DNA from: Klebsiella pneumoniae | GTDB taxonomy: Bacteria > Pseudomonadota > Gammaproteobacteria > Ga0077536 | Direction: 5' to 3' | Assembly: GCA_945861225.1 (NCBI GenBank) | Contig: CAMATU010000009.1 | Span: 1 to 39,612, forward strand | DNA: 39,612 bases | Shown here: positions 11,556-18,428 of the stretch, one piece after another | Numbering within the stretch: position 1 is the stretch's first letter | Layout of the letters: the number at the start of each line of letters is the position of its first letter | The notes under the pieces: model-generated | Told to the model about the DNA's origin: nothing | Databases searched by the model: none | Seen by the model: the letters and a program-made list of their open reading frames with translations, nothing else | Translations under genes and position numbers: made by a program

Positions 11556-11627
11556 ACTGCCTTTGCCGAAACGTCCGAGGAACTGTTCAGTAGCGCTGCA
11601 CAGAGAGAATTCACGGTGCGCGATTCG

Positions 11628-11761
11628 CCGCTGGAGGGGACTGGCCGCCGCTACTCACTCCGCATTTCATCCATGAAATGCTCCGTTGCCGCCCGCGCTG
11701 CGCTAAACCATCCCTGGCTCGCTTGCACGGGAGGAACGCTCTGGCCAGTCCCCTCCAGCGG
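11628..11761. repeat. 134-base palindromic element between htpG and prmB
   Basis: CCGCTGGAGGGGACTGGCC at 11628-11646 is the exact reverse complement of the sequence at 11743-11761 (19 bases). Inside, GCATTTCAT (11662-11670) and ATGAAATGC (11673-11681) form a perfect 9-bp stem with a 2-base loop. The element fills most of the 233-base gap after htpG and before prmB, both on the minus strand. The layout suggests a small MITE or a REP-type unit, and its RNA would form a strong structure that may stop htpG readthrough. No second copy is in this window and no target duplication is evident. Confidence 0.75.
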
Positions 11762-11788
11762 CTTGGCGTGATCGGCATGTCCGCTTTC

Positions 11789-14475: not shown

Positions 14476-17019
14476 ATGACCGCCACGCACACCCCCGTGA
14501 TGCAGCAGTATTTGCGCATCAAAGCCGACCATCCCGAGTTGCTCCTGTTCTACCGGATGGGCGACTTTTACGAACTGTTTTTTGACGACGCGAAGCGCGC
14601 CGCGCAGTTGCTCGACATTGTGCTGACCAGCCGCGGCGAATCCGGTGGCGAGCGTATCCCGATGGCAGGCGTACCGGCACACGCCGCTGAAAACTATCTC
14701 GCACGCCTGTTGAAGCTTGGCGAGTCGGTGGTCATTTGCGAGCAGGTGGGCGATCCCGCGACCGCGCGCGGTCCGGTGGAACGCAAGGTCACGCGCATTC
14801 TGACCCCAGGCACCGTGGTCGAAGAATCCTTGTTGAGCGAGCGGGTGGAAAATTTATTGGTCGCGGTGCACAGCAAGGCCGAGCACCATGGCATCGCTTG
14901 GCTTGATCTCGCCAGCGGTCGCTTCAGGGCGATGGAAGTCAACTCAACGACTGCCCTGGAAACCGAACTCGCGCGTCTGCGTCCCGCCGAGCTCTTGGTC
15001 CAGGAACAGACCACGACCCCAATCGCGCACGACTTGGCCGCGATTCAACGGGTACGACCAGCGTGGCATTTCGATCATGCGCAGGCCTGCCGCCGCCTAT
15101 GTCTACGCTACGGCGTGACCACACTCGAAGGCTTCGGCATCGGCGCTGACAGTCTCGCGGTCGGTGCGGCCGGATGTGTGCTGACCTATGGCGAAGAGAT
15201 GCACTGCGGCCTGCTGCCGCATCTGCTCCCGCTGCAGCTTGAGCGGCGCAGTGACTGCATTCAGATGGATCCGGCGACTCGCCGTCATCTGGAGATCCTC
15301 GACAGTCACGACGGCGATCAGCGGCATACCCTGGCCGCCCTGATGGACAGTACGGTCACCACGATGGGCGCTCGACTATTGCGGCGCTGGCTACCAGCTC
15401 CCTTGCGAGATCATTCGATATTGGCGCGCCGGCTGCAGGCAGTTTCCACCTTGCTTGCCTCTGCCCATTCACTGACTATCCGCGACACCCTGAGCCAGAG
15501 CTTTGACGTCGAACGCATCGCCACGCGTATTGCGCTGCGCACCGTGCGTCCGCGCGAGCTTAGTCAATTGCGCCGTTCGCTACAGATGCTGCCAGTGCTG
15601 GGTGATCTGCTTGGCGCGCTCGACAGCCCCTTGGTACAAGCGCTGCAGAGCGAACTCTGCGATCACACCGCACTCACCGCTCTCCTCACGCGCGCGTTGG
15701 TCGAGACGCCTCCGTTACTGTTACGTGAGGGCGGCGTATTTGCAGCCGGTTACGATCCGAGTCTCGACGAGCTGCGCACCCTTGCCGTTGATGCCGACCA
15801 GTTTTTACTCGACCTGGAACGCCGCGAGCGCGCACGGACCGGCATCGCGGCGCTAAAAGTCGGCTTCAATCGAATTCATGGCTACTACATCGAACTCAGT
15901 CGCGCACGCGGTGCTGAGGTGCCGGTGGATTATCACCGCCGGCAGACCCTCAAAGGTGTGGAGCGCTATATCACGCCTGAACTCAAGCGCTTCGAAACCA
16001 AAATTCTAAGCGCTCATGAGCACGCGCTAGCCCGCGAACGCGAATTGTACGAAGGGCTCCTGACGACGCTGGCCGCTTCAATCCAGGACCTGCAACGCAC
16101 GGCCGCAGCGCTCGCCGAACTGGATGTGCTGACCTGTTTCGCCGAGCGTGCCGACACCTTGAATTTCTCACCGCCCAGCTTTACCACTGAGCGACGGCTT
16201 GAGATTAAGCAAGGTCGCCACCCGCTGGTGGAACGTTTCGGCGGCGGTGCGTTTGTGCCGAATGATCTGCTGTTGGAAGACCAGCGCCGTTTGCTACTGA
16301 TTACCGGCCCGAACATGGGCGGCAAATCCACCTATATGCGGCAGACGGCGTTGATTGCGATTCTCGCGCACTGCGGAAGTTTTGTGCCGGCCGCAGCGGC
16401 GGAGTTTGGCCCGTTGGAGGCAATATTTTCGCGGATTGGTGCGAGCGATAATCTTGCGCGTGGCCAGAGCACTTTCATGGTCGAGATGACCGAGACCGCG
16501 AATATCCTGCATAACGCCAATGCGTGCAGCCTGGTCCTGATCGACGAAATAGGCCGCGGCACCAGCACCTTTGACGGGATGTCGCTGGCCTGGGCCGCCG
16601 CTGAATATCTCGCACTTCAGAATCAGTCGTTCACATTGTTCGCGACGCATTATTTTGAATTGACGGCGATTGCGGCCGCCCTCCCCGTGGTGGCAAATGT
16701 GCGCATGGACCCCATCCAACACGGCGAGCAAGTGGTATTCATCCACGCGATCCGGGAAGGCCCCGCAAATCAGAGCTTTGGCCTGGCGGTTGCGCTGTTG
16801 GCGGGGGTGCCGCGGGTTGTTATCGAACAGGCTCGCCGGCGCCTACACGATCTCAACACGCGCTATGTCAGCCAAGTACAATTGCTCTCACCACAACTGC
16901 CGCGACCAGACGCCACGCAGCACCCTGCCTTACTCGCCCTCGCCGCGCTTGACCCTGATCAATTGTCGCCTCGCCAGGCGCTGGCCTTGGTCTACGAGCT
17001 GTGCACCCTGTTGAAATAA
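14476..17019 (+). CDS. mutS: DNA mismatch repair protein MutS
   Basis: MutS recognises mismatches and small loops and starts methyl-directed repair with MutL. At 847 residues it has the family length. The N-terminal mismatch-binding domain carries [19 protein letters not shown] with the Phe-x-Glu wedge type sequence, followed by [20 protein letters not shown]-like [19 protein letters not shown]. The C-terminal ATPase has Walker [15 protein letters not shown], Walker [17 protein letters not shown] and [10 protein letters not shown]. The neighbour fdxA downstream is the usual one in pseudomonads. No strong ribosome-binding site precedes the ATG. Confidence 0.97.
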
Positions 17020-17048
17020 AACTTTTGGGTTCCATACGGCACAGAATG

Positions 17049-17077
17049 TTGGGGCCGCCCGCTCCTATGGCTATAAT
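17049..17077 (+). promoter_or_regulatory. Sigma-70 promoter of fdxA
   Basis: TTGGGG (17049-17054), 17 bases, then a consensus TATAAT (17072-17077), followed by the fdxA ATG at 17108. The leader would be about 25 bases. It gives fdxA its own promoter between mutS and fdxA. Confidence 0.7.
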
Positions 17078-17107
17078 GCAGGCGTCTTCAACAATCCGTG
17101 GCGCACC

Positions 17108-17431
17108 ATGACTTTTGTAGTGACCGATAGCTGTATCAAATGCAAGTACACCGACTGCGTCGAAGTTTGCCCGGTAGATTGCTTCCACGAAGGTCCCAAC
17201 ATGCTGGTAATCGATCCCGACGAGTGCATCGATTGCACTTTGTGCGAACCAGAATGTCCGGCTGAAGCGATCAAGTCGGAGGACGATTTGACCGATGAGG
17301 AGCAGCAGTTCCTGGCGCTCAACATTGAGCTGTCCAAGGAATGGCCGGTGATCAACGAGATGAAGGATCCGCCTGCTGACGCCGATGACTGGAAGGGCGT
17401 AGCAGAAAAACTGCAATACCTGGAACGCTGA
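17108..17431 (+). CDS. fdxA: Seven-iron ferredoxin
   Basis: This 107-residue ferredoxin belongs to the [3Fe-4S][4Fe-4S] type of Azotobacter ferredoxin I. Cysteines at positions 9, 12, 17, 21, 25 and at 40, 43, 46, 50 fit the two clusters ([18 protein letters not shown], then [12 protein letters not shown]), and the C-terminal extension ends LQYLER. It carries low-potential electrons in the cytosol; partners are not known from the sequence. It is preceded by its own promoter and lies convergent with the small RNA at 17449. Confidence 0.95.
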
Positions 17432-17448
17432 TTCGGCGCCTCCAAGCG

Positions 17449-17700
17449 CAAAAAAAAACCCGGTGGCCGGCATCCACCGACCACCGGGCTGACCATTAAG
17501 TTCGTCCCTGAACTTTCCGCAGTTAATGGCCACTCCTCCCGCGCCAGACCCTTGCCGTCCGCTGGCTTGGTCTGGTGCGGTACCAGCTTCCCTGCCAGTA
17601 CGGAGCAAGCGTAGACCCCGCTGGGCCTGGGCGCGAATTTTGGATAATTCCGCTGCGCGACTCTCTGTGTTCCTGGTTACGCCAGCCGATACAGGGACTT
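17449..17700 (-). ncRNA. rsmZ: RsmZ/CsrB-family small RNA sequestering CsrA/RsmA (5' end approximate)
   Basis: The minus strand of the fdxA to DUF4124 gap encodes an RNA with nine GGA triplets between 17673 and 17473, mostly in loops. GUACUGGC (17601-17594) and GCUGGUAC (17587-17580) form an 8-bp stem (two G-U pairs) with loop AGGGAA. GCACCAGACC (17578-17569) pairs with GGUCUGGCGC (17550-17541) and encloses GCC-AGCGGAC-GGC. CCAUUAA (17529-17523) and UUAAUGG (17499-17493) enclose GUUC-AGGGAC-GAAC (17513-17500). GGGAGGAG lies single-stranded between stems. The terminator hairpin itself shows UGGAUG in its loop. AGGGA loops are the known CsrA/RsmA binding form, and rsmZ lies next to fdxA in Pseudomonas. 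I found no GacA box or firm promoter, so the 5' end could lie anywhere from 17680 to about 17850. Confidence 0.82.
17450..17488 (-). terminator. Rho-independent terminator of the small RNA
   Basis: On the minus strand CCCGGTGG (17488-17481) and CCACCGGG (17466-17459) form an 8-bp GC-rich stem around an inner CGG-TGGATG-CCG hairpin, followed by nine T (17458-17450). The T-run is only on the minus-strand side, so it terminates leftward transcription, which no protein gene here would need. fdxA ends 18 bases further left on the other strand. Confidence 0.9.
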
Positions 17701-17837
17701 GCCTCACGCAGGCCTGACACACGCTTAAGACTTTCAGATAAACGCGAAGGGTGGCGGCGACTTTTTCCCGATCACGCGCAGGTCGATCACGAAGGCACTT
17801 CAGCGCAGATGAACAGCGGCCAGCCAAAGTGGCGACT

Positions 17838-17869
17838 GGCGAGTCATCGAGAGCGCTTTTATACTCGCC
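17838..17869. other. Spaced inverted repeat between the small RNA and the DUF4124 gene
   Basis: GGCGAGT (17838-17844) and ACTCGCC (17863-17869) form a perfect 7-bp inverted repeat with an 18-base spacer that contains TTTATA (TATAAA on the minus strand). It lies in the divergent upstream region of the small RNA and the DUF4124 gene and could be a protein-binding site. No regulator can be named. Confidence 0.35.
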
Positions 17870-17924
17870 CACGCGACCCTACTTGGGTGGCGTTTTTTCA
17901 CCTAAATTTTTCCGCGAACCGCGC

Positions 17925-18428
17925 ATGGTGCAGACCCGTTTCTTCATTCGTCACCTGGGGTGGCTACTGGCCATAGCGATCATGGTAAGCGCGTCATTCG
18001 CCGGTGAAATATACAAATGGACGGACGCCGACGGCCGTGTGCATTTTGGGGACAAGCCAGGTGGCGCACAGGCACAAGCCGTTCAAATCAAATCGTCACC
18101 GGCGGCGCCGGACACTACTGGCCCGGCGTTGGAAGCGGGACGTCGTGCACGCACCGCACGCCTGCTCAACGAATACGCGGTCGAGCGCAGCGAACGTGAG
18201 GAGGCCAAAGCGAAAGCGCAGGCCGCGCTGAATGAACGTCGGCAGGCTTGCGCCGCAGCCCGCCGCGAACTGGCTGAACTGGAACAGACCCCGTACTTGT
18301 ATACGCGTGATGAACTAGGCGCCAAGGTGATCCTCCCCGCCAGCGACCTGCGCAAAGAACGTGCGCTGGTGACCGCGCGCGTGCAGGAATTATGCAAGGG
18401 TGACGCCGCAGCGCCGAATCGGCGCTAG
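17925..18428 (+). CDS. DUF4124 domain-containing secreted protein
   Basis: The 167-residue protein starts with a signal peptide (MVQTRFFIRHLGWLLAIAIM, cleavage about after SFA). The mature part begins with the DUF4124 signature GEIYKWTDADGRVHFGDKPG, then an Ala/Pro linker and a long, charged, probably coiled-coil helix (RTARLLNEYAVERSEREEAK and on) with two cysteines (CAAARRELAEL, and LCKGD near the end). DUF4124 proteins are common in gammaproteobacterial envelopes and have no assigned function. The ATG at 17925 is chosen because it begins the signal peptide; no ribosome-binding site is clear. Confidence 0.85.
   Translation: MVQTRFFIRHLGWLLAIAIMVSASFAGEIYKWTDADGRVHFGDKPGGAQAQAVQIKSSPAAPDTTGPALEAGRRARTARLLNEYAVERSEREEAKAKAQAALNERRQACAAARRELAELEQTPYLYTRDELGAKVILPASDLRKERALVTARVQELCKGDAAAPNRR

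Follow-up and report, generated by a model that had tools for sequence, protein, structure and literature searches.

The window, that is, the whole 39,612-nucleotide stretch that was analysed, probably carries an unannotated gene for a small RNA that titrates CsrA. The candidate is a free-standing sRNA of ~150 nt on the minus strand (17452–17605), which would be RsmZ/CsrB-like in function and which lies at the position that rsmZ holds in Pseudomonas. We put the probability of this reading at about 0.87. The 3' end of the gene is set by a terminator, and the 5' end is tentative. The initial annotation had proposed a CsrA/RsmA-titrating RNA beside fdxA, and the proposal is well supported: it rests on the sequence, the predicted fold and the terminator, together with conserved ANGGA hairpins, their strand bias, covariation, the presence of csrA in the genome and the gene order mutS–fdxA–sRNA. 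With it, the known range of CsrA-sponge RNAs would take in an uncultured gammaproteobacterial order in which Rfam models miss them.

In the window, mutS (14476–17019, plus strand; TIGR01070, 1050 bits) is followed by fdxA (17108–17431, plus strand), which encodes a 107-aa ferredoxin (NCBIfam NF045490, 169.5 bits, above the cut-off) and converges with the candidate RNA gene. The gap from fdxA to the next gene beyond the RNA, which encodes a DUF4124 protein (17931–18428, plus strand), is about 500 bases, and a CHASE2-kinase gene comes after it. A tRNA/tmRNA search found none. The neighbourhood of Pseudomonas rsmZ includes fdxA and mutS (PMC4353343), in keeping with the earlier remark that rsmZ adjoins fdxA there, and the window likewise has the order mutS–fdxA–sRNA.

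The minus strand of 17449–17700 contains nine GGA triplets, as first counted, against three on the plus strand. They lie at 17673, 17651, 17591, 17560, 17539, 17536, 17518, 17507 and 17475. The window averages 2.9 GGA per 225 nt per strand, and at least nine occur in only 0.4% of the 225-nt stretches. The transcript probably starts 3' of the triplets at 17673 and 17651, so that seven remain in ~150 nt. Folding of the minus strand gave the 154-nt candidate (17605–17452) a minimum free energy of −80 kcal/mol with a z score of −5.6, and none of 200 shuffles was equally stable.

The hairpins with AGGGA and GCGGA loops were recovered where they had first been described. The predicted fold opens with the 5' hairpin GUACUGGCAGGGAAGCUGGUAC (17580–17601, minus strand), whose AGGGA loop (17589–17593) is the first predicted CsrA site; its aligned counterpart in the related locus L023 is GCCGAGAGGGAAGTTGGC. 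The middle hairpin (17540–17579, minus strand) has a GCGGA loop. In the 3' domain (17490–17532, minus strand) an outer stem is drawn around UGCGGA and the inner hairpin AAGUUCAGGGACGAACUU (17498–17515, minus strand), which presents AGGGA at 17505–17509 and whose stem covaries in 10 relatives. The tandem GGGAGGAG (17534–17541, minus strand), described earlier as a single strand, is present 3' of the middle hairpin and is single-stranded or weakly paired. If the transcript begins near 17605, part of GGGAGGAG may be paired with CUCC at the very 5' end, and to that extent the earlier description may not hold. A Rho-independent terminator (17451–17489, minus strand) faces fdxA; as had been claimed, it carries GGA in its loop, with a hairpin at 17460–17489, the loop GGAU, a minus-strand T tract at 17451–17459 and a stem that covaries. 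A published screening rule for such RNAs (PMC5568370) asks for two ANGGA motifs, along with a terminator and a poly-U at most 60 nt from the last of them, and the candidate has all of these.

A promoter scan at the consensus threshold gave no match for the candidate sRNA. Alignment by eye suggests a weak, tentative -10 element TACGCT (17608–17613, minus strand), which reads TAGTTT in L023 and TAGCCT in L025. A weak, tentative -35 element TTCGCG (17632–17637, minus strand) lies within a stretch common to L023 (AAATTCGCGC). Transcription of the minus strand would start a few bases 5' of the AGGGA hairpin and end at the terminator facing fdxA. CsrA dimers would then bind the GGA sites in the two ANGGA hairpin loops, the GCGGA loop, UGCGGA and GGGAGGAG, and sequestration of CsrA would release CsrA-repressed mRNAs. 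The activator of the sRNA might be the GacA-like regulator encoded upstream of uvrC.

Membership in the Rfam families RsmZ, RsmY or CsrB, whose models the initial annotation had proposed to run, was not borne out: these models gave no match in the window at gathering or permissive thresholds, and RF00166 (PrrB_RsmZ) gave none anywhere in the window's genome. Because the same RF00166 model scored above its cut-off in 0 of the 143 gammaproteobacterial genomes drawn, it is a narrow model and its missing match says little about function. An Rfam search of 20 fdxA loci, Stutzerimonas included, found a tRNA alone and so provided no positive control from Pseudomonas.

The CsrB and CsrC RNAs of enterobacteria (RF00018, RF00084) titrate CsrA through repeated GGA hairpins; they exceed the candidate in length and, by a wide margin, in the number of GGA repeats. 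The window RNA is predicted to share this titration through GGA hairpins, and it has no match to these families. Pseudomonas RsmZ agrees with it in several parts: both RNAs are ~120–150 nt long, repeat GGA in loops, end in a Rho-independent terminator and have fdxA adjacent and mutS near. In contrast to RsmZ, the window RNA is without an Rfam match and a detected canonical GacA box, its 3' domain has an outer stem around an ANGGA hairpin, and its next gene encodes the DUF4124 protein, whereas rpoS is the next gene at Pseudomonas rsmZ. CsrR2 of Alcanivorax dieselolei, an independently transcribed sRNA with six unpaired GGA that is proposed to sequester CsrA, lies next to a ferredoxin gene, and its authors remarked on the parallel with fdxA–rsmZ (PMC9788540). 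The window candidate is likewise a putative CsrA-sequestering sRNA adjoining a ferredoxin gene, a likeness drawn from the published description; unlike it, CsrR2 belongs to another lineage and has an hpt gene as its neighbour.

The fdxA loci of 58 relatives were oriented to fdxA. Among the 36 genomes, the window's family makes up the entire order, which is uncultured. When the relatives were searched for DNA similar to this region, one clear match (G005) was found. On the strand opposite fdxA, hairpins with AGGGA, AAGGA, ACGGA or AUGGA loops recur in most genera of the family, and their number and arrangement differ widely between genera. A hairpin was counted as strict if it had ANGGA in a loop no longer than 7 nt and a closing stem of 5 pairs or more. 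Across 27 loci of the order, the minus strand 3' of fdxA has 32 strict hairpins and the plus strand has 0; dinucleotide shuffles of the same loci had a mean of 1.1 and a maximum of 4 in 300 rounds. At least one strict hairpin is present in 22 of the 27 loci, and the conservation of GGA loops beside fdxA in relatives, on which the first reading depended, is therefore confirmed.

A covariance model (R1) was built from ten 3' domains of relatives, each comprising the last hairpin and the terminator, aligned without structural guidance. Its consensus has 17 pairs, eight of which changed on both sides. Covariation was 0.471, against 0.182 in shuffled alignments and at most 0.106 with the partners slid; changes on both sides numbered 25, against 7.4 in the shuffled and at most 5 in the slid controls. 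The seed segments were chosen by eye for hairpins, which biases them towards pairing, and the whole-genome search therefore serves as the independent test. The 3' domain of the window matched R1 with 77 bits (E 1e-18 genome-wide). In five genomes outside the seed (G035, G032, G003, G013 and G002) the best genome-wide match adjoins fdxA, with E values from 3.6e-11 to 1.2e-5, and all 15 of the 15 strong matches lie beside fdxA. Outside the order, the class-wide search gave only weak matches, away from fdxA. Among 80 fdxA loci from a public collection, two of which (L052 and L053) belong to the window's order, the only match at the right place outside the order was in Billgrantia (L080, E 0.004).

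A real structured sRNA might instead act by base-pairing, for example antisense to fdxA or to other mRNAs, with the GGA loops incidental. The RNA does converge on fdxA, and Alcanivorax CsrR2 has been proposed to have a dual function, antisense to fdx (PMC9788540). However, the terminator separates the RNA from fdxA, so the RNA overlaps the reading frame of fdxA only a little, and ANGGA is conserved in the loops while the stem sequences vary. We consider action by base-pairing improbable.

The hairpins could also be a mere terminator or palindromic, REP-like intergenic repeats with no sRNA function. Similar ANGGA hairpins do occur in a dispersed element of the genome (11.6–11.8 kb in the window; copies in L213, L214, L219 and L136). 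The background was taken from 440 kb of the window's genome, the window included, which amounts to 879 kb of strand sequence. Strict ANGGA hairpins occur in it at 0.023 per 300 nt, and two within 120 nt are found only at the fdxA site and in the dispersed repeat at 11.7 kb. Yet the 440 kb sample holds no copy of the fdxA element, across loci 32 hairpins point one way and 0 the other where dispersed palindromes would be expected both ways, and the position and the terminator are fixed across loci. A repeat without sRNA function is accordingly very unlikely, and an origin of the fdxA hairpins from a dispersed palindrome was judged unlikely.

The element itself (11627–11762, minus strand) lies between htpG and prmB and consists of a 20-bp inverted repeat (CCGCTGGAGGGGACTGGCC arms) around two ANGGA hairpins, with a z score of −6.96. 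Its copies on other contigs are 75–84% similar, which makes it a dispersed, MITE-like element.

That the region codes for protein, in a 334-codon or a 65-codon minus-strand frame, is highly unlikely: such open frames exist, but the 334-codon frame (16868–17872), called spurious at the outset, has no Pfam match and runs antisense through fdxA, and the covariation at the RNA level is strong.

A CsrA-titrating RNA calls for CsrA, and csrA was sought in the window's genome and found there as one canonical gene, after a lysC-like gene. The CsrA of this lineage is 64 aa long (L001). Of the 36 genomes of the order, 22 have a detected csrA. The fdxA hairpins are present in 19 of the 22 genomes with csrA and in 4 of 12 without it (Fisher p 0.005, kinship ignored), a co-occurrence that supports the function without any experiment. 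The pattern is clearest in genera g3 (six loci) and g5 (two loci), where neither csrA nor the hairpins were found. Genus g8 (G012, locus L034; G019, locus L035) is an exception, with hairpins beside fdxA and csrA not found, and three genomes (G001, G014 and G025) have csrA and no strict hairpin. In the g3 and g5 genomes, mostly ~2 Mb in size, csrA was not found, in contrast to most genera with larger genomes. One of the two g8 genomes is rated 100% complete, yet csrA was not found in it.

In other phyla the protein FliW antagonises CsrA. FliW is absent from all 36 genomes, which fits a known anti-correlation between FliW and BarA-UvrY systems or RNA antagonists (PMC4682653).

The initial annotation had also implied a Gac/Rsm circuit, and the search for gacA and gacS succeeded in part. 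A gene for a NarL-type regulator lies directly upstream of uvrC, the usual position of gacA. Its best family is UvrY/SirA/GacA, with 188 bits against an equivalog cut-off of 280 bits, and it is the GacA ortholog by position, not by score. No GacS/BarA equivalog was found above the cut-off in this genome, which is 88% complete; its hybrid kinases reach at most 430 bits against 890. The best match to the GacA box TGTAAG-N6-CTTACA in the window has 7 of 12 positions, no better than shuffles. A Gac/Rsm circuit and Gac control of the candidate sRNA appear plausible from these sequences, with csrA and the GacA-like regulator at uvrC in their favour and the want of a GacS/BarA above the cut-off and of a canonical GacA box against them.

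With the position beside fdxA fixed, such RNAs can be found cheaply in genomes that defeat sequence search, and the question arises whether rsmZ-like RNAs go back to a single ancestral locus. The region 3' of fdxA might be an ancestral CsrA-sponge site that was kept repeatedly across Gammaproteobacteria, with orthologous RNAs whose sequences drifted beyond recognition, an idea that we advance tentatively and rate somewhat below even odds. With the same reserve, it might span Pseudomonas rsmZ, Alcanivorax CsrR2, the window's order and three of the 80 public-collection loci, the position and the ANGGA hairpins persisting throughout. These three, all outside the window's order, are L080 and L099 (Halomonadaceae) and L094 (MAG N2D-Bin_13). 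Each has an opposite-strand terminator near fdxA, and the 180 nt before the terminator contain 11 (L080), 14 (L099) and 9 (L094) GGA.
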